From Ostrinia nubilalis (Eukaryota > Arthropoda > Insecta > Lepidoptera > Crambidae): a stretch of 64,000 bases of DNA. The position numbers were made by a program, and so were the translations under genes. The notes beneath the pieces are model-generated. The model was not told the origin of the DNA. It saw nothing but the letters and a program-made list of their open reading frames with translations, and did no database searches. Positions 5,101 to 64,000 of the stretch are shown one piece after another. The stretch lies in assembly GCF_963855985.1 (NCBI RefSeq), contig NC_087111.1, positions 1,245,001-1,309,000 on the forward strand, in the 5' to 3' direction. Numbering within the stretch: the first letter of the stretch is position 1; each line of letters starts with the position of its first letter.

Positions 5101-8100
5101 TTTCTAAAGCAAAAAATAGATTTAGAAACAATTGAATGAGCAATATTATGACATCTTTCAAAACCAATAGAATTGCAATGTTCTAAATAAAAATTTTAAA
5201 AAAATCAAAATTTTGTGATTTTTTCATATATTTTTTCAATTATGTCTAATAGTGATTTTTCGAATTAAACTTTTTTATTCATAAAATTTATTTTCTATTT
5301 ACAAAACACCTTTAAATTAATTCTATTTTCATTGTTCTGTTTAATAATACAAAGATTTTAGAAAATTGCCATACAATAGAAAATAATTAAATTAAAACGA
5401 CGGTAGAGGGCTAAAAAATACATTTTAAAAATAAAATAAAAATATCCTTATTATTATCTTGCTCTCATGCAACTTTTAGCAGGTATTCAAGTTCGTTTAC
5501 GTAACTTTTTTTTTTAACCATACAATGACGCTCCACCCTAATGGTCACCCTCAGTGGTCTAGTGGTAAGACCACCTGCTTCAGACGCAGAGGTCTCGGGT
5601 TCGATTCCCAGTGGGGGCAGATTTTTCTGTTCGGTTTGGTTGGTGGTAGGGCTTGTTCTAAGTCCGCCTGGCTAGCTACCACCATCTTACCTAAGTCTGT
5701 CGCCATAACAGCAATGTTAACAGCATTGTTGTGTTCCGGCAGTTAGAGGTAAGATAGCCAGTTCCTCCGTGGTTGAGGATTCCGGGTGAAGCTCGCTTCC
5801 ACCTTCGGTCTGATCGTCACTTACCATCAGGTGAGATACAGGCCAAGAGCTTCCTCGATGTGGATAAAAACAAAAACCCTTATTTAAACTGCTATGTAAT
5901 GTGTAGGGTATCCCTTTAGTTTTTTGGCTCTTCTCGAAAGGCTTACGTCCAGCATCCAGATGTGAACAGACTGTCATATATATTATGATGATCAACTTAA
6001 TAAGATCCATTTTTGTTTGGTAAACCTACAAATTAAAAAAAAACTTGTTGGTCAATGGAAAAAGAAAATGAAAGATCGTGCTTTGTGGAGCTTCTTAGCA
6101 AGAGTTTTTTACTTGTAAAAGTTCAAGTCAAGAATTCATAGTTTTTGGAATTGTTTAAAAAAACTCTGTTGCTACAAATGTTTGGTTAAAAGACCATCTC
6201 TATTCGTTAATGCGAGTGATAATATGAAGCAAATGGAAATTGTATTAATTTTATAATTCCAGAGCTGTCCAAACAGCACAGCAAGCGTTTTCAACGTGAA
6301 GCCACTGCCCGTTGGAGTCAATGAAACGCTCATGCACATCGCGCCTCTACTGCAGGCTTTGAACACCAGCCGCTCCCACGTCCACACGGAGTCTATGATG
6401 TGAGTTTACTTTATCATCATCGTCAACAACATCATCATTGTCATCCACATCGTCTTCATCAACCACACCATCATCATCTTCGTTTTTATCACGATTACCA
6501 ACTCCAAACAGCACTGCTATAGTCTGGTCTGCGAGCACATAGAATTTTGTCCAATGACCCCAAGCTACCCATCCTTATCGCTCGCGCGTAATTATATTGC
6601 TGTCGCGACTGTACGACGGGCGGCCGCAGTGAGTGTGCGAGCGCGATAGCAATATAATTACGCGCGAGCGATAAGGATGGGTAGCTTGGGGTCATTGGAC
6701 AAAATTCTACGTGTTCACGGACCGGGCTTTAGTTAGCGTGAATGAAACACTCATGCACATCGCGCCGCTACTCCGGGCTTTGAACACCAGCCGCTCCCAC
6801 GTCCACACTGAGTCTATGATGTGAGTTCATTTCTCGTCATCATTGTTAACATCCTTACCACCATCACCATCATTATCGTCGTTACCTTCACCACCTTTAT
6901 TAATATCATCATCATCATCATCACAGGTACCAGTTTCAACGTGCAGCCTGGACGTGGACAACGCAGGACACTATTCGTTTGATCAAAGTGTCATCAACTG
7001 CTGGACCAAGGGTTTCCACAAAGACAGACTCTCCGTTGTCTGCATTCAGATACTTTCCACGGCCTTTACTAGATTGAGCAAGAGGCCTATGATTTTTTCT
7101 GCCGTTAAGACTATCACTTCTATGAGTTATCTTAATTTATTTATGGAAAATAGAATTTGTTAGTTATGACAGGCCTGTTCATCTCCGCGAGTTTACATCG
7201 AAAACAAAACACGCACGATGGCCCACCTACAGGATACTATTCGACAAGGCCTCACATACGAGCGAACATTGACTCACGCAAGCGTATTCTTGTGTATGAT
7301 GGAAGAAAATAAAGAAAATGGTGCACTAAATACTGTGCAGTATTTAACTGCCTAAATATTAATAAAAACACAGAATGTACTTTTTTAAGTTGCCTCAAGA
7401 CGCTGAGAGGTAAATAAGTAGTTAATATTATTCATGATAATTCATGCTAAATCATGTATTTCCTCCGCCATTTTCCGCAGTTTGGCACCTCACGTCACAT
7501 CATTTTACCGAAGTCAGCCCTATAGCTTCGGCGCAGTGCCGATCACTGACGTTTGTCAACAAAATGGTGCTTGACTCTTGATACAGGCTAAATTACACCA
7601 TATTGTTAATGACATTGAGCATACATTTTTTTAAATACCTTCGCGAAGAAAAAATTCTGTACGTAGTACTTATTATTATTCTGTGCTATTACTTCTATTC
7701 CAAGGGATTTAGCTCGAAAATCCTTTACTTCTCTTGCATCTCCAGTCTCAATCTCAACAGCAACAATTTAACATTTCCAGCAACAGCAGCCTCCACGCCA
7801 TGTACTCCGTCTCCTACATGTGGTACGCCGTCATCGGCACGGTCACGTGCGTCGTCATCGGCGTCATTATCGGCGTCATCACCGCCAGCGATGATGACGC
7901 GTACGACGAGCGACTCCTCCACCCTATGGTTGCCAGATTAGCCAGGAAACTTCCAGGGAAACCCAGGTAATCAAGTAATGGCTGGTAATAAGGTAGTGAT
8001 GTTGCCTCCTGACAGTTAATGGCTGGGACGGTTAATGTTGGGCATTAATTACACTCGACATCAAATAAATCGACCCTCCCGCGACAAGCACTTTCAAACG

Positions 8101-13111: not shown

Positions 13112-13888
13112 ATGTTCCTTATAGAAACAAAAACTACTCGACAGATTTTAACGAAACTTGGTGCAATTATTCTTCATACTCCTGGGCAGGTTATAGGATA
13201 CTTAGGAATTCCCACGGGAACGGGCATTAGCGGGAAAATCCTTTTGTATGAAAAATCTAAACCGCTTAAGTTAGACGCTTGAAATTTGGCAAGCAGATAC
13301 CTTAGTAAATTTAAAGCTTAGTTACAACAGGATATTGCAAAATTTTCACGGGAATGGGAGTTAGCGGGAAACAACATTTGTATGAAAAAATCTAAACCGC
13401 GTAAGTTAGACGCTTAAAATTTGGCATGCAGGTACCTTAGTAAACTTAAAGCTTAGTTGCAACAGGATATTGCAAAATTCCTACGGGAACTGGAATTAGC
13501 GGGAAATTCCTTTTGTATGGCTGACTCACTGACATACCCACGCACAGCCTAAACGGCTAAACGTAGGCACTTGAAATTTATAAGGGACGTAGCTTAGGTA
13601 CCGTAGAGGTGCACTAAGAAAGGAATTCCCGAAATTCCCACAGGAACAGGAATTACCGGGAAAATCCTTTTGTATGAAAATCTAAACCGCTTAAGTTAGA
13701 CGCTTGAAATTTGGCATGCAGGTACCTTAGTAAACTTAAAGCTTAGTTACAACAGGATATTGCGAAATTCCAACGGGAACGGGAGTTAGCGGGAAAAAAC
13801 ATTTGTATGAAAAAATCTAAACCGCGTAAGATAGATGAAGGGGGTAAAACGGGATCCACGCGTACGAAGTCGCGGGCGGCCGCTAGTA
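12938..13888 (+). repeat. Module repeat, inner forward copy
   Basis: About five modules starting near 13212, 13352, 13480, 13636 and 13769, with (TGTC)n before them and the GCGGCCGCTAG end. It lies inside the pogo-like element. Confidence 0.7.
13061..13112 (+). repeat. (TGTC)n microsatellite
   Basis: About 13 perfect TGTC units, part of the repeat above. It gives a false Ser/Val/Cys/Leu-rich open frame. Confidence 0.9.
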
Positions 13889-14329
13889 TCTAATATTAGC
13901 AACACTGATAGCGTTAACAGCTTTGATGTGTCAAGCTTCACTTCAATCCAACAAGTCATTATTTTTTGAGAAGCGTTAATTGTTTTAAGTCTTAGCAAAA
14001 AGGCTAAGGCGAGCGGGTGAGTAAAAAATCATTATTTTCTAAATCCTTCTTATTTTTTTAAATGTTTATGTTAATCCTTAATAAAGAATACACTGTCTAA
14101 GTGGTACTAATGATATTTTATCGCTATTTGTTTATTAAGGGGTTTATGAGAGGTGGCCACTAATGGAGCCAGAATAAATGAATTTTCCCATCTTTGGCCA
14201 CATGAATGGCCAAAAGTGGTGCACGAAGAACCCCACTTTTGGCCATTTAGTTTTTATCGTGATTTTTCAATTTAATTACTTAGCTATTTTGATATAAGTA
14301 ATCGATTCATTTTCAGAGTTACGATTATA

Positions 14330-15388: not shown

Positions 15389-16130
15389 ACTAGCGGCCGC
15401 CTACGACTTCGTACGCGTGGATCCCGTTTTACCCCCTTCATCTATCTTACGCGGTTTAGATTTTTTCGTACAAATGTTTTTTCTCGCTAACTCCCGTTCC
15501 CGTGGGAATTTTGCAATATCCTGTTGTAACTAAGTTTTAAGTTTACTAAGGTACCTGCATGCAAAATTTCAAGCGTCTAACTTAAGCGGTTTAGATTTTT
15601 CATACAAAAGGATTTTCCCGCTAATTCCCGTTCCCGTGGGAATTTCGGGAATTCCTTGTAACTAAGCTCTAAGTTTACTAAGGTACTTACATACCAAATT
15701 TCAAGCGTCTAACATAAGCAGTTTAGATTTTTCATACAAAAGGATTTTCCCAAAAATTCCCGTTCCCGTGGGAATTTCGGGAATTCCTTGTTGTAACTAA
15801 GCTTCAAGTTTACTAAGGTACCTACATACCAAATTTCAAGCGTCTAACTTAAGCAGTTTAGATTTTTCATACAAAAGGATTTTCCCGCTAATTCCCGTTC
15901 CCGTGGGAATTTCGGGAATTCCTTGTTGTAACTAAGCTTTAAGTTTACTAAGGTACCTACATGCCAAATTTCAAGCGTCTAACTTAAGCAGTTTAGATTT
16001 TTCATACAAAAGGATTTTCCCGCTAATTCCTGTTCCCGTGGGAATTCCTAAGTATACTAAAACCTGCCCAGGAGTATTAAAAATAATTGTACCAAGTTTC
16101 GTTAAAATCCGTCGAGTAGTTTTTGTTTTT
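15389..16130 (-). repeat. Module repeat, inner inverted copy
   Basis: Begins with the inverted ACTAGCGGCCGCC end and carries about five modules with CCCGTTCCCGTGGGAATTTC. Together with 12938-13888 it forms a large imperfect inverted repeat in the pogo-like element. Confidence 0.7.
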
Positions 16131-16890: not shown

Positions 16891-17168
16891 AAATAGTAGG
16901 TACTGGATTAACGGATTAACGGACTTAATAGGATAATTTAACGGAAGTTAACGAGTCCGTTAACATTTTTTAAAGTTAACTTAAAAGTTAATCCGTTAAT
17001 AGAAATGTTAACTTCGTTAATTAACGATTAACGGATTAACGAGTTAATGCCCAGCTATGTATAGAGGTGCACTAAGCAAAGAATTCCCGAAATTCTCACG
17101 GGAACGGGAATTAGCGGGAAAATCCTTTTGTATGAAAAATCTAAACCGCTTAAGTTAGACGCTTGAAA

Positions 17169-17801
17169 GGACATCATCCATTTTGGTCCAAAATCAAAAG
17201 TGCCGGCCAAAAAATAAAAGTGCTGTATTCTGATAGAATACGTCCGCCTTAGCATTTATTACTATGGCACCAAAGCTGTAGCACCACTGTGCATCGTAGT
17301 ATTTGAGCTCTAAAAATATATGAAACGACTGACTTTGATCTCAAATACTACGATGCACAGTGGTGCTACAGCTTTGGTGTCATAGTAAAAAATGCTAAGG
17401 CGGACGTATTCTGTCAGAATACAGCACTTTTTTTTTTTTGGCCGACATTTTTGATTTTGAACAAAAAATGTATGAATCGTCGATGAATTTTAGATCTCAA
17501 ATACTCGACGCATAGTGGTGCTACAGCTTTGGTGTCATAGTAACAAATACTAAGGCGGACGTATTCTGTCAGAATACAGCACTTTTATTTTTATTGGCCG
17601 ACATTTTTGATTTTGAACAAAAAATGTATGAATCGTCGATGAATTTTAGATCTCAAATACTCGACACACAGTGGTGCTACAGCTTTGGTGCCATAGTAAC
17701 AAATGCTAAGGCGGACGTATTCTGTCAGAATACAGCACTTTTTTTTGTTGGCCGGCACTTTTGATTTTGGACCAAAAATATATGAAACGTGGATGATGTC
17801 C
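17169..17801. mobile_element. Spy-like DNA element without target duplication
   Basis: Ends GGACATCATCCATTTTGGTC and inverted GGACATCATCCACG. One left unit is inverted against three tandem right units of about 155 bp (CAGTGGTGCTACAGC at about 17360, 17515 and 17671). The empty site is known from sister modules (GCTTGAAATTTGGCAAG). The element lies exactly between GAAA and TTTG with no base duplicated. Spy transposons are described as inserting between AAA and TTT without duplication. A second copy starts at 63802. Confidence 0.65.
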
Positions 17802-18002
17802 TTTGGCAAGCAGATACGTTAGTACACTTAAAGCTTAGTTACAACAGGATATTGCAAAATTCCCACGGGAACGGGAGTTAGCGGGTAAAAACATTTGTAT
17901 GAAAAAATCTAAACCGCGTAAGATAGATGAAGGGGGTAAAACGGCATCCACGCGTACGAAGTCTTGGGCGGCCGCTAGTTAATTTTATAATTTGATTATT
18001 AG

Positions 18003-19973: not shown

Positions 19974-20405
19974 TAAAAAATTAAATTCAGCAACTTGGTC
20001 CGTGGACCTAGCTAAAAGTGAGCCAAATGAGTGGTTGAAACTGGTCCTGACCTTACAGGCAGGCCTGGAGGATCAGGCTGGACCTTCCAGGCCAGTTGCA
20101 GCTGATTCTGAAGATTCCCTTCAGTGTAGTGAATATTTTGATAAATCTGATTAAAACACGAATGTTGGAAAAAATATTAAGAAAGTTGAATAGATAAGGC
20201 ATAATTTTTGGAGGGCTTTGTTTAATTATTTTCTTTTTCCTATTTCCTTTTTGTTCTCTCTTTGCTGTATTTCCCTTGAAGTGTAATATAAATGTTCTTA
20301 TGTAAACCGGCAGGTCAGTGCAGAAAATATTCACTTTTTTTGTATTATTATTTATATTATTTTTATTTTATATATTTAGCTAATTATTATTTTATATTTT
20401 TTCAT

Positions 20406-23336
20406 ATGGATGATGAATCATTTTTTTCCGCTCATGAATCATTTTCAACCAATGACGACTGTTCTTTCCATGATGTTTCCACTTCTACCTTGAAGGATAT
20501 TTTGAACGAAAACTTTTCTAAAACAAAGAAATTTCTAAATACGTGTCACATTAATGCGCAAAGTATCCCTGCACACTATACGGACCTTTATGAGACTTTC
20601 TCTGGTGAAAACCTTCATGCCATACTTGTATCTGAAAGTTGGCTGAAGCCTTGCTTGGCCTCAACATCCTATGCCCTGCCAGGATTCGTGCTAATTAGGA
20701 ATGATCGCACTGGCAAGGGTGGTGGTGGTGTTGCCATCTACCTGCGAAGTGATATACCGTACAGGGTTCTAGAAATGTCACCTTCTCTGTACAGTGGTTC
20801 CGCTGAATTTATTTTCCTGGAAATAAATGTCAGGGGAGTCATAGCTGCTCTGGGGGTGGTTTACTGCCCACCTGGCGTTGACTACCTTTCAAAGCTTGAG
20901 TCCGCCCTCGAACCCATTAGCACAGAATACCCACACCATATAATCATGGGGGATTTTAATACCAATCTGTTGGTTAAGTCACTGGCCTCCACAAAATTTC
21001 TTGCTATGGTGTCTTCCATAAATTTTTCCATTCTTCCTCTTCAACCTACTCACCACAATGTGGACTCTCCCGATACGTGGCTGGACCTCATCATTACATC
21101 TGCTCCGGATAGCGTGATCTCTCATGGTCAGCTCGCTGCGCCCGGATTCTCACGCCACGACCTGATTTATGCAACTTATAAGCTTCATACCTTAAAACAG
21201 AAACCTACCACAGTGCAAATGCGCAACTTGGCCCGGGTGGACGCGGAGGCCATCAAAAGGGATGCGGCTTCGCTCAACTGGCAACCTGTTTTGACAGCGA
21301 CGACTATCGACACTAAGGTGTCGCTATTCAATACGCTCCTGTTGTCCCTCTTCGATGTGCACGCGCCGCTTCGTCCGGTCAAACTGAAACGCCCACCAGC
21401 GCCCTGGATCACCGAAGGGGTGCGAATGGCAATGAACCGCCGCGACCGTGCTTTCCGAAGATTTAGAAGGGACCGTAGTGATAGTAATTGGAGTGGCTTT
21501 AAGGCTGCTAGAAACCGGTGCAACCAGATGGTGAGATCAGCCAAGCGACATTACATACATGATAATATTCTCAACTCTTCTTCGGCTGATGTGTGGAAAT
21601 TCCTCAAAAATCTTGGCATAGGCAAAGCTGAAATTAAGCTCTCTCATTCAATTTTTTCACCCGATGACCTAAATATCCATTTCTCTTCTGCATCACCCTT
21701 GGACCCTGATGTCAAAACTCAAACCATCGCCGAGGTATCTTCCATGCCCTCCTGCATCCCCACGTCCTTCTCATTTTCCGCGGTGTCAGTAGATATGGTC
21801 AAAAAAATCATACTGTCCATTAAATCACAAGCGGTTGGATTCGATGGCATAGGCCGTTACATGATATCTATCCTACTTGACTTCATTCTCCCTTTAGTAA
21901 CTCACATCATCAACTTCTCCTTAAGCACTGGTACTTTCCCTACTTTATGGAGTAAAGCTTTTGTCATCCCTCTCCCTAAAATTTCGAACCCCACTACTCT
22001 TAATAACTTCCGACCCATCTCTATACTACCCTTCCTCTCCAAAACTTTGGAGGCTGCCGTACACTCGCAAGTCTCTAAGTTTATCTTTGACAATAATATC
22101 TTGAGTCAGTTCCAATCCGGCTTCCGTCCTGGCCACAGTACCAGCACTGCACTACTCAAAGTGACTGAGGATATTAGAACGGGCATGGAACACGGTGAAG
22201 TGACTTTGCTTGTATTGATCGACTTTTCCAACGCTTTTAATACCGTGGACCATGATGTTCTTCTCTCTGTCTTAGCACATCTCAATATGACACCTACTGT
22301 CATAAACTGGTTTGCTTCCTATCTTCGTGGTCGCCAACAAGCGGTTCGTACCGATAAATCAGTTTCCCACTTGCGTGACCTGCTCACTGGCGTTCCGCAG
22401 GGTGGTTTACTCTCTCCCTTACTGTTCTCTTTATTTATAAATTCTATCACCCTTGGTATTGGCTCTTCTTACCATTTATATGCGGACGATTTGCAACTAT
22501 ATCGACAGTGCCACTGCGGGGATATCAACATGGCTGTGGACAGTATTAACGCTGACCTTAGATATATCTCCGAGTGGTCTAAGCGTTATGGTGTGGCTGT
22601 TAATCCGAACAAGTGCCAAGCTATAGTTATCGGTAGTCAACGTCAAATATGTCATCTTGATTGTGTATCACCAGTTAACTTTAATGGCGTTGACATCCCT
22701 TACTGCACAAGTGTCAAAAACCTTGGCTTACATATGGACACTACGCTCAGCTGGAACACCCAAGTTGCAGAGGTCAGTCGGAAGGTAACCGCCACACTGC
22801 GCTCCCTCTGGAGGCTCAAGAATTTCCTTCCAGTTAAAACAAAAATTACCTTGATCCAATCACTTGTACTCCCAATCATCGACTATGCTGATGTGTGTTA
22901 CCGTGACTTGAATCAAGATCTCCTTACAAAGCTAGATCGACTGATCAACAACGCCATTCGTTTCATTTTCTGTTTGCGCAAATACGACCACATCTCCGCT
23001 TACCGATCTCAGCTACAATGGCTGCCTCTCCCACTTCGACGCAAAGTCAGAATCTTATGTACTCTTTTCTCGATCCTGAATGATCCAAATTCCCCATCTT
23101 ATCTCAAGTCACAGTTCACTCTTCTCAGTTCAACGCACTCACGTCAGCTCCGTTCTTCTAATAAGTCTGTCCTTTCCACCCCTCTTCACCGAACTGGTTT
23201 TCTCTCCGACTCCTTCCGTCTCCAGGCCATAAGGCTCTGGAATTCTCTGTCTGAAGATATCAGGCAAGCCTCTAGCAAGTTTTCGTTCAAAAAATCTGTC
23301 CATAACCACTTTCTCCAAGTGTTATCATCTTCATGA
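20406..23336 (+). CDS. CR1/L2-group LINE ORF2: endonuclease and reverse transcriptase, intact
   Basis: A 976-codon open frame without a break. The ATG at 20406 is preferred over an in-frame ATG 38 codons upstream, whose extra residues are only Tyr/Phe/Leu from AT-rich DNA. Residues about 45-260 form an apurinic-type endonuclease: HINAQSI (Asn50), SESW (Glu77), GDFN (182-185) and SRHD (249-252). Residues about 500-760 form the reverse transcriptase with FRPISILPFLSKTLE, FQSGFRPGHST, LVLIDFSNAFNTVDH, GVPQGGLLSPLLF and the catalytic YADD (codon Y at 22479). The C-terminus has the RLWNSLSEDIR motif usual in CR1 elements. Role: nicks DNA and copies its RNA into the nick. No ORF1 is seen upstream, so the copy is 5' truncated or of a type whose ORF1 I cannot recognise. 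Its open frame suggests a young insertion. Confidence 0.85.
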   Translation: MDDESFFSAHESFSTNDDCSFHDVSTSTLKDILNENFSKTKKFLNTCHINAQSIPAHYTDLYETFSGENLHAILVSESWLKPCLASTSYALPGFVLIRNDRTGKGGGGVAIYLRSDIPYRVLEMSPSLYSGSAEFIFLEINVRGVIAALGVVYCPPGVDYLSKLESALEPISTEYPHHIIMGDFNTNLLVKSLASTKFLAMVSSINFSILPLQPTHHNVDSPDTWLDLIITSAPDSVISHGQLAAPGFSRHDLIYATYKLHTLKQKPTTVQMRNLARVDAEAIKRDAASLNWQPVLTATTIDTKVSLFNTLLLSLFDVHAPLRPVKLKRPPAPWITEGVRMAMNRRDRAFRRFRRDRSDSNWSGFKAARNRCNQMVRSAKRHYIHDNILNSSSADVWKFLKNLGIGKAEIKLSHSIFSPDDLNIHFSSASPLDPDVKTQTIAEVSSMPSCIPTSFSFSAVSVDMVKKIILSIKSQAVGFDGIGRYMISILLDFILPLVTHIINFSLSTGTFPTLWSKAFVIPLPKISNPTTLNNFRPISILPFLSKTLEAAVHSQVSKFIFDNNILSQFQSGFRPGHSTSTALLKVTEDIRTGMEHGEVTLLVLIDFSNAFNTVDHDVLLSVLAHLNMTPTVINWFASYLRGRQQAVRTDKSVSHLRDLLTGVPQGGLLSPLLFSLFINSITLGIGSSYHLYADDLQLYRQCHCGDINMAVDSINADLRYISEWSKRYGVAVNPNKCQAIVIGSQRQICHLDCVSPVNFNGVDIPYCTSVKNLGLHMDTTLSWNTQVAEVSRKVTATLRSLWRLKNFLPVKTKITLIQSLVLPIIDYADVCYRDLNQDLLTKLDRLINNAIRFIFCLRKYDHISAYRSQLQWLPLPLRRKVRILCTLFSILNDPNSPSYLKSQFTLLSSTHSRQLRSSNKSVLSTPLHRTGFLSDSFRLQAIRLWNSLSEDIRQASSKFSFKKSVHNHFLQVLSSS

Positions 23337-33247: not shown

Positions 33248-34360
33248 ATGCTCACACGCAGAGCAGCGGCACAAGCCATTGAGCTGAAACTTAGGAGGGC
33301 ACTCGAGGAACTGAAACAGAGTCAGGAAAGCTGTAACCAACTCATTAGGGAAAGAGAAGAGAGTGAGGAGGAAATTACCTATACAGGGTGTTAGGTAAAT
33401 GGGTATATGAGCCGACACTAGTCCATGTTAACATGATTTTTATTTTTTTTAATTTTCATACAAAATAAATTTTATAAAATCCGATTTGTATAAAAATTAA
33501 AATAATTAAAATGAAGATATTAATTTTCTGACTTCACCATACCATTTATATGACCATGTTACCATGGGCTAGTGTCGGCTCATATACCCATTTACCAAAC
33601 ACCCTGTATAATAAAAAAAAATACTGAACTGAAACAAGAATTGGCAGAACTGCATGGCCGTCTCCAGGAGGTAACCGAACACCGTGATGAACTACTGCAT
33701 AGAATCAGTACCTTCGACCAGTGCAGCAATATCTTTGAGCAGACCTTGATGCGCAACAATGAGTTAGAAGCTGAACTGAGGGACGCCAATAAGACCATAC
33801 TGCACTTCGAAGAGGAAAGAAAGCAGCAGGAGTTCACACACACTCTGAACCTATACGAAGAGCTAATTGAAAGCCCTGGTGGACGTGCAGTGCTTCCAGA
33901 CCTAAATGTATCTTGCGACACCAAATTATCTGAGAACATTAGTCAGCCATTAACTTTTTCTAGTAGAAATAAATTTAAAAAATATGTTAAAATTAATAGG
34001 ATTATATCTAAAACAAAAAAATTAATAAAACAGCAAGAACAGTTTCACAAAAATATTCTGTTATGGAAAAAGAATTTAGATTTAGTGGACAGTTTAGAAA
34101 TCTACCACAGTAAATTAGTAGAGAGTAGGTCCACTCATAACTTGGACGTTGAAAGGTTGCAGGCTGAAATCACAAACTTGCATGACTCGCTTGCATCCAT
34201 AACAGCTAAATATAATTCAGCCAGGGAACAAATTAACGAACATATCCTGGCAGCAAACAATCTCTTAGATCTAGGTAATCCTACTACGGATTTTAAATCT
34301 CTTCCAAATATACCAATGCCAGTAAGTCAGCAACAACTCCAACATCAGCTACTTGCTTAG
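33248..34360 (+). pseudogene. LINE ORF1, coiled-coil protein, split by a MITE
   Basis: 33248-33383 encodes MLTRRAAAQAIELKLRRALE and a charged coiled coil. 33607-34360 continues with NTELKQELAELHGRLQEVTE and further heptad-like Leu/Glu/Lys repeats. Removing the MITE and one TA rejoins the two in one frame. Role in the family: nucleic-acid-binding ORF1 protein that packages LINE RNA. The C-terminal part (knuckles or RRM) is missing because of the deletion near 34310. Confidence 0.7.
33384..33606. mobile_element. TA-type MITE (CAGGGTGTTAGGTAAATGGG), copy 1
   Basis: Ends CAGGGTGTTAGGTAAATGGG and inverted CAGGGTGTTTGGTAAATGGG, with arms of about 55 bp (GAGCCGACACTAG shared). TA lies on both sides. 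A second, left-half copy is at 63652. Confidence 0.85.
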
Positions 34361-36648
34361 ATAATATTTTTTGTAACTGTAATATTCAAAGTAAATCAAT
34401 AATTAATTGCCTTAGTTCAGATCATAGTGGACAATTGGCCACATTTGAACACCATCATGTCCCTAGTACAGTGGATGTTGTTTGTAGGCCAATAACAACT
34501 AATCGAATTGACAAATTCAAGAAAAACATTTGTGATAGTATTGATAAACTTATAATAAATGACAATAATGTTGATCGAATGTATGAGGATCTATTCAGTG
34601 TAGTGAGTGATGAGTTCAAAACCACATTCCCACAGAAAAAGATCCGAATAAATTCGATAAAATGTAAATTTGACGACTGGGCTACAACCGGCATTCACAA
34701 GAGTAGAAATAAAATGTATGAATTATATAGACTTAAAGCTGATACGCAAGATCCGAATGTTATAGAATACGTTAAAAATTACTCGAAACTATTTAAAAAG
34801 GTTTGTGTGGCTGCTAAATCGAATCATCTTCGAGACATGATTTTAAATTCTAATAATAAAGCTAAGGCTACGTGGAACATAATAAATAAACAAACATGTA
34901 AAAATAAATCGAAGGATAACACCTTCTCACTGAAAGTCGGGAATGAAGTTATAAATTCAGATACAGATGTTGCAACCACATTTGAGACATTCTTCTCAAA
35001 CATTGCGTCCGAAACAACTAAAGCATTAAATTCATCGCCAATTCTTGCAGAGTCTCTCTTAAAATCTAATGTCACCGAGTGCCAGTCTCTACTCCAGTTC
35101 AGGCATATAGATTGTAATACAGTAATTAAAACCTTCAGAGAATTGAATATGAAAAAAACCGAGGACCTTTGGGGAATCTCTGTCAGTATTATTGGGACAA
35201 TTATTGACACCATAGCTCCTCACCTTGCATTCATTTTTAACACATGCATTGATCAAGGTTGCTTTCCTAGTTTAATGAAATTAAGTAAAATAATCCCATT
35301 GTTTAAGGCTGGTGATAAATGTGACCCCTCTAATTTTCGGCCGATTTCTATTTTACCAGTACTTAGCAAAATTTTTGAGAAAATTATATTTCATCAACTT
35401 CTTTCTCATTTTATTTTCAACAAATTACTTCACAATAAACAATTTGGTTTTACCAAAGGTAGAAGTACTACTGACGCTGGAGTAGCACTACTGAAACACG
35501 TCTTTGATGCTTGGGAGAGTAAAAAAGACGCTGTTGGTATTTTTTGTGACCTTTCAAAAGCGTTTGATTGTGTAGACCACCAAACCTTACTAAAAAAATT
35601 GCGACATTATGGTGTTTCGGATGAGGCACTTGATCTGTTGAACTCGTATCTCACAGGCAGAAAGCAAAAAGTTTGTATTAATGGAACTGAGTCTTCTGGA
35701 GCACCTCTTACCATGGGTGTGCCGCAGGGATCGATATTGGGACCTTTGCTATTTCTTATTTATATTAATGACCTTCCCTACTTTGTAAAAGATCTATGTG
35801 ATATTGTGTTATTTGCTGATGACACATCTCTCATTTTCAAAGTTGATAGAGGTAAAGTAAACCTTGATGATATAAATGACACACTCTCACAGGTTTTGCA
35901 TTGGTTTACTGTTAACAACTTATTGTTAAATGCAAACAAAACTAAGTGCATTAAATTTACCTTACCTAATGTGAGGCAGGTTCCCACACAATTGATGGTG
36001 AAGAATGAACCATTAAATAGCATAAGTTCCACAACATTCTTGGGAATCACTTTAGACTCTAAACTTCAGTGGGGTCCTCATATTGAAACCTTGTCAGCAA
36101 GGCTCAGTTCAGCTGCTTTTGCAGTGAGAAAGATAAGGCAATTAACTGACATTGAAACGGCAAGGCTAGTTTATTTTAGCTATTTTCATAGTATAATGTC
36201 ATACGGCATATTGTTGTGGGGCTCAGCTGCGGACATTGAAACTGTGTTCGTTCTGCAGAAGAGAGCAGTGAGGGCCATTTATAACCTTGGACCCCGATTT
36301 TCCTTGAGAGAATTCTTTAAGGAGATTAATATACTGACAGTAGCTTCACAGTTCATTTATGAAAACCTTTTATATGTTCGCAAAAATATAGAGCAATTTA
36401 CTAGAAAGAGTGATTTACACAAGTTCAATACAAGAAACAAAAATAAACTTGCCGTTCCAAATTTCAGACTGCACAAGATTGGTAATTCATTTATGGGGAA
36501 ATGTATTAAACTTTTCAATAAATTACCACAAACTGTTGTAGAATTGCCCATTCATAAATTTAAAGCACATATCAAAAGCACCTTAATGAAAAAGGGCTAC
36601 TATAAAGTTGATGATTATATAAAGGATAAAAATGTTTGGAATGTTTAA
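34324..36648 (+). pseudogene. LINE ORF2: endonuclease end plus reverse transcriptase
   Basis: The frame opens with the very end of an apurinic-type endonuclease (TSATCLDNIFCN and SSDHSGQLATF with the Ser-Asp-His triad). The reverse transcriptase follows: IIPLFKAGDKCDPSNFRPIS, FGFTKGRSTTDA, GIFCDLSKAFDCVDH, GVPQGSILGPLLFLIYIND and the catalytic FADD (35812-35823). It ends KDKNVWNV-stop and is open throughout. The first two thirds of the endonuclease are missing, so the product could not nick DNA itself. Member of the Jockey/CR1 group, distinct from the LINE at 20406. Confidence 0.85.
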
Positions 36649-38993: not shown

Positions 38994-41542
38994 AATGTTT
39001 TGGCATAATTACAGACTAATTACAGATGTAACAGTTTTCTTATAAGAGCTAGTAATAAGTATAATGATGCTTACAGTGATATCGACATATTTCATTTGAA
39101 GTTGGCGCAGTTTCGTCGCCTATTGAAGGGTTTATAGATTTCAAACTTCATTATTATAAAGATTTTTTTTAATCCACTATTAAGAATGTAAGGTTTTGTT
39201 GTGCATTTTTTATATTTTGTGATTTTAAATTGCTCGCACTCTGCATAACTTTCGATTAACTTGTAAAGGACAATGTTCGTTCTCCATACATTGTTCGCCG
39301 TTAGATCAACAGTGCCGAAAAAATACTTTCTAGGTTCTAAATGACACAAATCTTTATGTAAGAACAATTATTCCTGGCGGACCAATTCTATAAACTTATT
39401 GATAGCAATATTGTTATCATAACCTCTTACTTTCTAGTATTGTATTATATTATTTTATGCACATCGATTTGGGAGATGTTCTGTATTGTAGTTGTCGCAG
39501 CCAAATTGTATTATAATATTGGACGGGTTTTGGAAATAGCTCGGCGTTCCACTTTTATGATTTACTTACTTACATTTTGCACGTAAATAAATAACATGAA
39601 TCCTATGTTTACTTTCCACTCTTGACATTTAACACGTGACTTACCAAACTAACTATCTCCATGGTTACCGTCTTAGTCTATGCATGACTAGGGATTGAAC
39701 AACTTTTAATTGAATATTATTAACAATTCTCGATAATTATTATCGATTGAAAAATATTCGGTATTTGAATCGAAAGATATATTCAATTTTATCAATATCA
39801 AAATATTCAATTTTAATAATAAAATAAATATTATTTACTACTACCTATGAAATGTTCTGAACATTGCCTGGAGCGCTCCCCGAATCCTGGGTTTTCCCTT
39901 TCCAAGCTGAGAGGACATCATTTTGGTTCTATCGATACATTATAAAGGTACTTAATATTTGAAATGTATTACCAATTATTGTTATAAGCATTTTGAGCGA
40001 ATAAAACTTTCAATTCTATTAGAACTTTAGACATTTCTCTCACTTTAAGCGGCATTGGATTTTTCATCGGATTTTGAAACTGTTACAGATATATTAAAGA
40101 TGATCCCATATTGTTGTCATTGTCTATATCAGTGTTATGATCACAATTCTTTTTATTTTATTCATGACCTTCGACCAGTTGGACACATTAGATAGCTTCT
40201 TGTAGTATCGTGCAATATATTTTTAACTTTTAATTAAAATCTAGTCATACTGTAGCAATATGGACGATTTATTTTATTTACAAGATCGGTATCTTATTGT
40301 CTATGATGACCGCAGTCAACATCACTATTACATGGATTCCTAACAATGAAGTACGGCATTGCCTTGTGCCGATTTTACATAGATTTTATCGACACAAATT
40401 ATGGAACTTCATAGGATATGGAGCAGGCCACGCCCTAAAATGTCCGGATGTCGTCATAGTATTATGGAATACATATAAAAGACTTTTATTATTTCATTTT
40501 CTAATCCTCAAGTGTCCGTTACAATCTAATTAATATTTAAGTATTCAAAAAGTAAGAGATTAATTTTGATACTTTACTGCTGTGCCCAGGAATCTAAGGC
40601 GGTTTCTGACAATGTCCTTTATCTGTGGAAACTGATTAGGCTACTGTACTGTTTTTATTTTTTAAGTTCACATGTATAAACTCATGCTGTTTGTTTTCTT
40701 TATTAATAAAGAAAAATAAAATAAAATAAAATAATGAGTTTAGTATAATCGTCTCATTTCTATGAAATGCCGTACACTACTGCCTTAGTTTCTTTGCCCA
40801 GCTCAAAGGTTTGTACCCACAGGATCCTAAAAACGCAAAAAGCATCTGACGTTTCCCGAGCACGGTCCTGTCAGGGCTGCCACTGCCGTTTTAAATTGGA
40901 ATAATGAGGACGGCAACATTTTTCCGAGGGTTTTCCTTTAATCTGACGTCATATCTTGGAGTTCCAATTGGGTGTGCAATATAATGAAGTCTGCGATCGA
41001 TGAGGTGAAGTGCTTTGGAAATAGTATCAGAATTTATTTTAAGGATTTATTTTCATGCACAGTGTGTGCGAAGTTTCTTGACTTTATCCGGGTTCAACAT
41101 TACGCTCAAGAGTTATCTTTAATTAACTAGTTTTGACAACCTATGGATATTTATTTATACATGAAACGTGTCACTGATGAAAAACGTATAATATTTTTTG
41201 TTCATAATGAAACGAAGGTAGGTTCTGCCTGTATGTTCAAAGGGTAAGGGTATATAATACAAAGTAATGCTAAGAACGAGAGGGATTGCGTCGATCTATT
41301 TGATTCAATGCGCGTCGGCAAGCCATATTTCGGCCAATGCTAGCATTGCTAGCATTTTCCGTGGCAAACATTTCACCCAACATTTTTAATTTGCGGCCAC
41401 AAGAGATATACGGGCGCAGCAGCGTCATAAATTACATTTTTCTTTCAAAAGTGGATGTGGCAGTGGGGTTAGAGACAACGGGAAAAAAATATTGCATAAT
41501 AATATTATTATCATAAAAACTGTCAATTAGTTACAAGAAATA
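38994..41542. other. No gene recognised
   Basis: AT-rich. The - strand frame 39092-39367 and + strand frame 40297-40533 show no family I know. A short (TAAAA)n lies at about 40712-40732. Confidence 0.35.
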
Positions 41543-44340: not shown

Positions 44341-44522
44341 AACACGGGACTATTCCCACCTCTCGTTCCCACCGCTGCAACTCCTGTGTAGCCAGGATCT
44401 ACAGCTTGACCGCCATAAAAACCCAACCAATGAAGGTCAAGTCTGTCCCGGGGGAAAGTTAAACTGTCATTTGACCCGCAACGAAATTAATCAGAAGAAC
44501 ATAGGAGTTCGACTTCCCTCCA
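44341..44522 (+). repeat. Dispersed repeat, one of an inverted pair
   Basis: CTCTCGTTCCCACCGCTGCA to GAGTTCGACTTCCCTCC. The inverted partner is at 46329-46520. No frame is kept. Probably a LINE leader or UTR piece. Confidence 0.6.
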
Positions 44523-45026
44523 TTGCAAAGCGGATGACAGGTGACAAACAAAGGTTTAAAACCTAACCTAACCTAATCTTTTCGTAAAGGTTTTAATTCC
44601 CAGTGAATAGTGTAATATTTCTCGGTTTTTGTTCTCTGTTTATAACTAAACAGAGATTATATTATTATCTTAAAAATACTTCTAAAACTATTCGACTAAG
44701 TGCACATGGCATCACCGCAATTGAGATCAATTGTAAAAGAAGGTCGAGATAAAAACTTTTCCTGTATATTCATAGACCACTGAGATCTTTAGATACCGTC
44801 AAAGTTATTTTGTGAAGTTTATGAGTTATGAGGGGATCAAAAGTGGCTCCAAATGGTTCGTGTAATACACGGTGCTGCTCGCCAGTTCTGATACTTGAAC
44901 TAGATATATTACCTGACTGCACCAGAAGGAGGGTTATGTTTTCTTCATTATGAAAGCAAGAGCCTTGAAGTGCTATCAAACCAAGGTTTGAAATCCCAAT
45001 CTTTGTTTCAAAATACGGTCCTTTTC

Positions 45027-45276
45027 TGGCAGTGGGCGGGGCACATAGCTCGTAGAGCTGATGGCCGCTGGGGCAGGAAAGTTCATGAGTGGCGACCACA
45101 AGCCGGAAGACGTAGCGTGGGGAGGCCTCCCACTAGGTGGACCGACGATCTGGTGAAGGTCGCGAGAGGTGCCTGGATGCGAGCGGCGCAGGATCGGTCT
45201 TCGTGGAAATCCTTGGGGGAGGCCTTTGTCCAGCAGTGGACGTCTTTCGGCTGAAACGAACGAACGAACGAACGAA
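45027..45276 (+). repeat. RTE-type LINE 3' end, CGAACGAA tail, longest copy
   Basis: Open frame: WQWAGHIARRADGRWGRKVH, RRSVGRPPTRWTDDLVKVAR and RAAQDRSSWKSLGEAFVQQW, then stop and (CGAA)n. It is the reference copy for this lineage. Confidence 0.85.
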
Positions 45277-45299
45277 TGGTTCTTTAAACTTAATAAGAA

Positions 45300-45684
45300 C
45301 CACCACTCAACCCATAGGTATCTTCAATGTTAAGTTATTTATGTAAGTAATAGCATCATTAACCCTTCAAAGTTCGATTTTTTGTTTTTGTTACGTGTGC
45401 CAAAATCAGTGGTTGTTACTTCGATTGGTTACAACCTACACCTGGGTGCGACCTCATTACAGCTGATGTGGTGTCTACTAGTAGAATAGTGGTCTGTGTA
45501 TCTGCGATACGTCCGCAGCCCTCTAGTTTGCACCTTTGCCACTCCGCCGGAAACTTATAATGACTTCGGAACTGAGCTGGCTTCGATCGCTTCTGGAAGT
45601 ACCTTAGATATAGCGTAGGTTTTACCCACAAAATATATGGAGGAAACCGAGAGAAAGGTATCTAAATATAATAAAACTCAAAGG
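45300..45684. other. Unassigned, GC-richer than average
   Basis: A 71-codon - strand frame (45416-45631) with KFPAEWQRCKLEGCGRIADT looks protein-derived, but I cannot place it. It has no clear exon borders. Confidence 0.3.
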
Positions 45685-45834
45685 TGACTGACTGACATAG
45701 TGATCTATCAACGCACAGCCCAAACCACTGGACAGATCGGGCTGAAATTTGGCTAAGAAAGGATTTTACGAAACTCCACTCTTATGGGGGTAAAACGGGA
45801 TCCACGCGTACGAAGTCGCGGGCGGTCGCTAGTA
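45685..45834 (+). repeat. Module repeat, short copy
   Basis: Ends GGATCCACGCGTACGAAGTC and GCGGTCGCTAG. Only the end modules remain. Confidence 0.65.
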
Positions 45835-46328
45835 AACTACCTATATGATAAACCAAGTCACATATTACAAGTACTTAGTTTAAGTGCTTTACTAACAAAC
45901 CTTTTTCACACAAATACTTTCAAACATTCTCGTCCCTCAGATTGATTTAGAGATGTTTTCCAACAATAAGAGGTAAAGTAGCATACCTACCCTATTTGGG
46001 AAAGAGAAAAACAAAGGATCCTAAATTCCCAGGGAGGTAGGATAAAGTCGCGAGTACTCGCAAATCACGCGCGTGATGTACCGACGATCGCGTGCCCTTA
46101 ACTCAGGGCTGCCACTTACCTGAGGAAAATATCCGAGCAAACTAATACTGTATATAAAAGTACAAAGGCACAAAATTGCTTGCGCCAAATTTTGCTTGGG
46201 AAAAAATATATTTTGGGGTGCATCTAGAATATGGGAGCATCGTTATTCGGTGTTTATGTGATGGTCAATATCAATATCGAACCGAAAACGATGGGAAGAT
46301 TTGATTGGGGCAGACGCGATAAGGAAAT
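45835..46328. other. No gene recognised
   Basis: No coding frame or known repeat seen. Confidence 0.3.
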
Positions 46329-46520
46329 GGAGGGAAGTCGAACCTTACTTTCGAACTCCTCCTATGTTCTTCAGATTAATTTCGTTGCGGGTCCAATGAC
46401 AGTTTAACTTTCCCCCGGGACGAACTTGACCTTCATTGGTTGGGTTTTTGTGGCGGTCAAGCTGTAGATCCTGGCTACACAGGAGTTGCAGTGGTGGGAA
46501 CGAGAGGTGGAAATAGTTCC
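46329..46520 (-). repeat. Dispersed repeat, inverted partner of 44341-44522
   Basis: GGAGGGAAGTCGAA to CGTTCCCACC-type end, inverted, about 90 percent alike by eye. Confidence 0.6.
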
Positions 46521-59054: not shown

Positions 59055-59259
59055 CTCTGAGCACGTAGAATTTTGTCCAATGACTCCAAGCTACCCATCC
59101 TTATCGCTCGCGCCTAATTATGTTGCTGTTGCGCTCGCACACTCACTGCGGGCGCCCGTCGCACAGCCGCGACAGCAATATAATTACGCGCGAGCGATAA
59201 GGATGGGTAGCTTGGGGTCATTGGACAAAATTCTACGTGCTCGGAGACCAGACTATAGA
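59055..59259. mobile_element. Palindromic MITE (AGTCTGGTC ends), copy 2
   Basis: As 6517-6732, with AGAATTTTGTCCAATGACTC on the left. The left terminus is eroded. Confidence 0.75.
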
Positions 59260-63801: not shown

Positions 63802-64000
63802 GGACATCATCCATTTTGGTCCAAAATCAAAAGTGCCGGCCAAAAAATAAAAGTGCCGTATTCTGATAGAATACGTCCGCCTTAGCATTTTTTACTATGG
63901 CACCAAAGCTGTAGCACCACTTTGCATCGTAGTATTTGAGTTCTAAAAATATAAGAAACGACTGACTTTGATCTCAAATACTACGACGCACAGTGGTGAT
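63802..64000. mobile_element. Spy-like element, copy 2, cut by the window edge
   Basis: GGACATCATCCATTTTGGTC and onward matches 17169-17370 nearly base for base. It begins directly after AAAA. Confidence 0.7.

Follow-up and report, generated by a model that had tools for sequence, protein, structure and literature searches.

Spy is a group of cut-and-paste DNA transposons in the PHIS superfamily, described as inserting within AAATTT without duplication of the target (PMC4482050). In PMC11304231, Spy elements are given AAA as the 5' and TTT as the 3' flank and terminal inverted repeats (TIRs) of 5 to 691 bp, and Lepidoptera are named among the hosts. The group is described there as restricted to invertebrates, and a study of teleost Harbinger elements also refers to Spy as known from invertebrates (PMC9179366). 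From moths, a Spy-group element has been reported in rDNA spacers (PMC10257491), and the main text of a MITE survey in Helicoverpa makes no mention of Spy (PMC9033116). Published Spy end sequences are given in tables and figures, and three strings that were sought in the main text of PMC11304231 are absent from it. Here, an element with these target habits is described from the window, a stretch of 64,000 nucleotides of Ostrinia nubilalis DNA, the repeats of which suggest by themselves an insect and probably lepidopteran host.

Ends and insertion site of the element

The element occupies positions 17169-17801 (633 bp) and is flanked by GAAA on the left and TTTG on the right. It starts with GGACATCATCCA (left TIR, 17169-17180, plus strand) and ends with TGGATGATGTCC (right TIR, 17790-17801, minus strand). 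According to self-alignment and pattern scan, these 12-bp inverted ends match each other perfectly; they abut the flanks directly (GGAC...GTCC) and are accompanied by longer imperfect arms. A pattern composed of the end and its inner neighbour is matched three times in the window, always within the two copies of the element, and in none of 100 dinucleotide shuffles. End comparison and an ORF check delimit an element without a long ORF; at most 82 codons run without a stop, and the element would therefore depend on a transposase made elsewhere. The single-strand folding of the element is much stronger than that of shuffled sequences (z of -29, n = 20 shuffles), as is expected for a foldback element. 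When the window was scanned for inverted ends flush with AA and TT, most of the matches listed were arms of other repeats, either AT-rich or nested. At position 39913, GGACATCATTTTGG looks like the element's left end but is preceded by GAGA; no similarity to the element is listed at this site in the window alignment (E up to 0.001).

A sequence-only reading of the window had placed the element cleanly between AAA and TTT, with no base duplicated, and had pointed to sister modules as the source of the uninterrupted sequence. Both observations are confirmed. The flanks were joined (100 + 100 bp) and compared with the window by gapped BLAST; besides the element's own flanks, seven matches cross the junction and none of them is gapped there. 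A second scan with 20 + 20 bp of joined flank, in which only substitutions were permitted (at most 10), returned the same seven sites, which differ at 1 to 7 of the 40 positions. AAATTT is intact at the junction in all seven of these empty sites in the 64-kb window, three of which lie on the plus strand (13265-13304, 13400-13439 and 13690-13729) and four on the minus strand (15949-15988, 15814-15853, 15679-15718 and 15547-15586). The example cited in the earlier reading is GCTTGAAATTTGGCAAG at 13277-13293. At the occupied site, flank reading and the substitution-only scan place AAA at 17166-17168 and TTT at 17802-17804. No flank duplication of any length from 1 to 20 bp surrounds the element, and its boundary is unique, as a shift by one base fails in both directions. 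Taken together, the empty sites, the lack of duplication and the fixed boundary show that the insertion added only the element itself.

AAATTT is found at 77 of the 64,000 window positions, so that the chance of hitting it with a single random insertion is about 0.12%. Because this target was already described in published work, the comparison is a fair test, with one full insertion as its support. With seven empty sites in a single window, this clean natural insertion adds to the record of duplication-free cut-and-paste elements. The host modules (about 135 bp; 13207-13895, 15390-16046 and 17069-17978) end three times in GCGGCCGCTAGT, and this end, with CTAG before T, is one that we take to be Helitron-like. 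It is probable that the Spy-like element lies within a non-autonomous repeat of the Helitron type.

Probable assignment to the Spy group

The published Spy features that can be tested here were all found: insertion between AAA and TTT for the first copy (seven of seven empty sites), no target duplication (1-20 bp, one complete insertion) and terminal inverted repeats, while the rivals that can be tested on flanks and ends fail. The proposal that this is a Spy element is thereby upheld on these features, and the element is most likely a cut-and-paste DNA transposon of the Spy group that is non-autonomous and of the foldback or MITE type. From its ends and target we infer the type of transposase and the mode of cutting. 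The 12-bp ends, together with nearby inner sequence, would be bound by a Spy transposase produced elsewhere, which would excise the element and join it into an unstaggered cut midway through AAATTT, with no target base copied.

It is very unlikely that the element belongs to another PHIS group (ISL2EU, PIF/Harbinger, Pangu or Nuwa) and looks duplication-free here by chance. These groups are relatives of Spy with a preference for AT-rich targets, and ISL2EU ends usually begin with GG (PMC4482050), but the duplications described for them (AT for ISL2EU, TWA for PIF, ANT for Pangu and CWG or TNA for Nuwa; PMC4482050) would show, and the empty sites read AAA|TTT with nothing copied. All of these groups were rejected on the absence of the expected duplications from the element's flanks.

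Helitrons insert between A and T, and they begin with TC at the 5' end and finish with CTRR at the 3' end, without inverted ends. A rolling-circle derivative of the Helitron or Helentron type (HINE) would share with the element its duplication-free insertion, and inner tandem repeats are often present in such derivatives. Some DINE-1-like or HINE elements do carry tandem repeats, and elements of this kind occur in Lepidoptera (PMC4067079). The element, however, ends in GGAC...GTCC and not in TC...CTRR, its perfect inverted repeats are flush at both ends, and it shows neither the TT insertion nor the subterminal repeats set back from unequal ends that are described for Helentrons and HINEs (PMC4067079). 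Both forms were rejected on the ends and flanks of the element, and a rolling-circle origin is considered very improbable.

Second copy and search for a transposase

The second copy of the Spy-like element is seen up to the edge of the window: its left 199 bp (63802-64000, plus strand) align with seven differences, its left flank is GAAAA, and its right end lies beyond the window. This copy interrupts a palindromic MITE, and alignment to a paralogue of that MITE at 33380-33612 provides two arms for comparison, both of which read AAAA|TTAAAA at the insertion point. The earlier reading had stated that the second copy follows AAAA where the intact MITE continues from AAAA into TT, and this agrees with both arms. 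Because AAAA is followed by TTAAAA in each of them, the target of the second copy was probably AAA|TTA, a departure from strict AAA|TTT. The expectation that all copies fall at AAA|TTT is thus borne out by the one complete insertion with its seven empty sites but not by the second copy, for which the paralogue predicts AAA|TTA. In human cells, AAWTT is reported as the site of about 60% of cgSpy insertions (PMC11304231).

The window contains 13 ORFs of at least 120 codons (read from stop to stop, introns not modelled), ten of which were scanned with Pfam. No DNA-transposase domain was detected in these ten. Two of them carry reverse transcriptase, one carries DUF6451, an uncharacterised domain, one has a match below the cut-off and six are empty; endonuclease domains were found besides reverse transcriptase. 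Membership in the Spy family is provisional, because the group is defined in phylogeny by its transposase and none was found. An undescribed lineage of duplication-free TIR elements, with nothing but the target habit in common with Spy, would fit a transposase search in which none of the 10 scanned ORFs (of 13) ties the element to Spy, and would also fit the half-seen second copy with its probable AAA|TTA target. Against it, the target, the lack of duplication and the inverted ends together make up the set of features published for Spy, a group that occurs in Lepidoptera; such a lineage is given little probability, and the Spy assignment is retained.

Further features of the window were recorded. 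The long ORFs with RVT_1 domains at 20292-23336 and 34297-36648 are probably non-LTR retrotransposons. Long inverted arms at 44381-46485, with outer ends about 2.1 kb apart, are possibly those of another DNA transposon with long inverted ends. Two mutually similar stretches of 160 bp with inverted ends (6545-6704 and 59071-59230) are probably copies of one palindromic element, and a tRNA-Leu (cag) is predicted by ARAGORN at 5547-5619.

Outside the window, exact patterns from the element gave 0 matches in prokaryotic genome contigs and two chance matches only in viral contigs, and blastn with the element gave no match in a plasmid collection; all three collections are uninformative on insect genomes. 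The viral matches were set aside as chance with their flanks judged by eye, one (L001) being a 20-base exact match to the element and the other (L002) a 22-base pattern only, with no BLAST match at E 0.01.

Tandem array and comparison with known elements

Within the element, one inverted unit in the left arm (17181-17315, minus strand) lies opposite three direct units (17337-17796, plus strand). The inverted unit, bases 13-147 of the element, aligns to bases 609-476 in the last direct unit with 94% identity over 135 columns, and the direct units have a period of 156 with 93% matches (TRF, alignment). This is the layout of one inverted unit against three tandem units of about 155 bp that had been noted before. 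When the array is compared with itself one period on, the junction between direct units 1 and 2 (17438-17509, plus strand) and that between units 2 and 3 (17594-17665, plus strand) share 72 identical bases; the best 155-column stretch reaches 96.8% and the worst 87.1%, and outer 40-column windows fall to 80%. Each direct junction also holds a 24-mer (17468-17491 and 17624-17647, plus strand) that aligns to the true right end with 17 of 24 matches. Among 2000 mononucleotide shuffles of the element, a lenient control for a 24-mer that was picked post hoc, 8 reached this score. We read the 24-mer as a decayed true end that would have been carried along in the first duplication.

The 72 identical bases shared by the junctions and the decayed true end within them suggest that the array grew by tandem duplication. 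The identical junctions would be the trace of a tandem duplication that spanned one junction and was later than the first, and gene conversion could leave the same pattern. The array may have started from a foldback element whose long inverted repeats held a single unit per arm. The right-arm unit would have been duplicated, with an end copy left to decay at the junction, and slippage or unequal exchange would then have duplicated one period in tandem a second time to give the three direct units. In the earlier description as an expanding array, past tandem duplication agrees with the identical junctions and the decayed end, whereas ongoing growth goes beyond this evidence. A Spy-type foldback element that multiplies the inner part of an arm, with a decayed end copy in each unit, and seeds a 156-bp satellite in its host is a doubtful extension of the Spy assignment.

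The structure had further been called unusual for a MITE, which is too strong, as inner tandem repeats have been published for both foldback elements and MITEs (PMC4079207, PMC2872659). The lopsided arm with its tandem units is a minor structural variation on an otherwise ordinary element. Among the Spy papers listed, at the level of titles and opening lines of abstracts and with the founding paper and supplements aside, no inner tandem array was found for any Spy element, which amounts to a weak claim of absence. The array illustrates tandem growth within a Spy-like element and adds modestly to the record, inner tandem repeats having already been published. The element can serve as a test case in which the array and the missing duplication are both traceable in genome copies.

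Among array-bearing elements, Tetris and other foldback elements are similar in their long inverted arms with inner tandem units, which measure about 220 bp in Tetris (PMC4079207). The Tetris units also share a stretch with a flanking domain, which is interpreted there as a duplication of that domain (PMC4079207). In contrast to the element, which has no target duplication, Tetris has target duplications that measure 8-10 bp and has been grouped with Mutator (PMC4079207). The element further differs from Tetris and other foldback elements in having three units in one arm and one in the other. Tandem growth is likewise described for CMITE of corals, where it is attributed to replication slippage, and for a Xenopus case cited in the same paper (PMC2872659), but CMITE is piggyBac-like, has TTAA duplications and forms arrays of whole elements (PMC2872659). 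Some Helentron or HINE elements resemble the element in their inner tandem repeats (PMC4067079), whereas their subterminal repeats, TT target and 3' stem-loop set them apart from it in target and in the position of the ends (PMC4067079).

The closest match is to Spy. The intact Spy elements described in PMC11304231 are 1165 to 5910 bp long with one ORF, compared with 633 bp and no long ORF here, and the element differs from them in the tandem array of one arm and in that its transposase is unseen. It shares with them the position between AAA and TTT, the lack of target duplication, the inverted ends and the occurrence in insects, including Lepidoptera (PMC4482050, PMC11304231).
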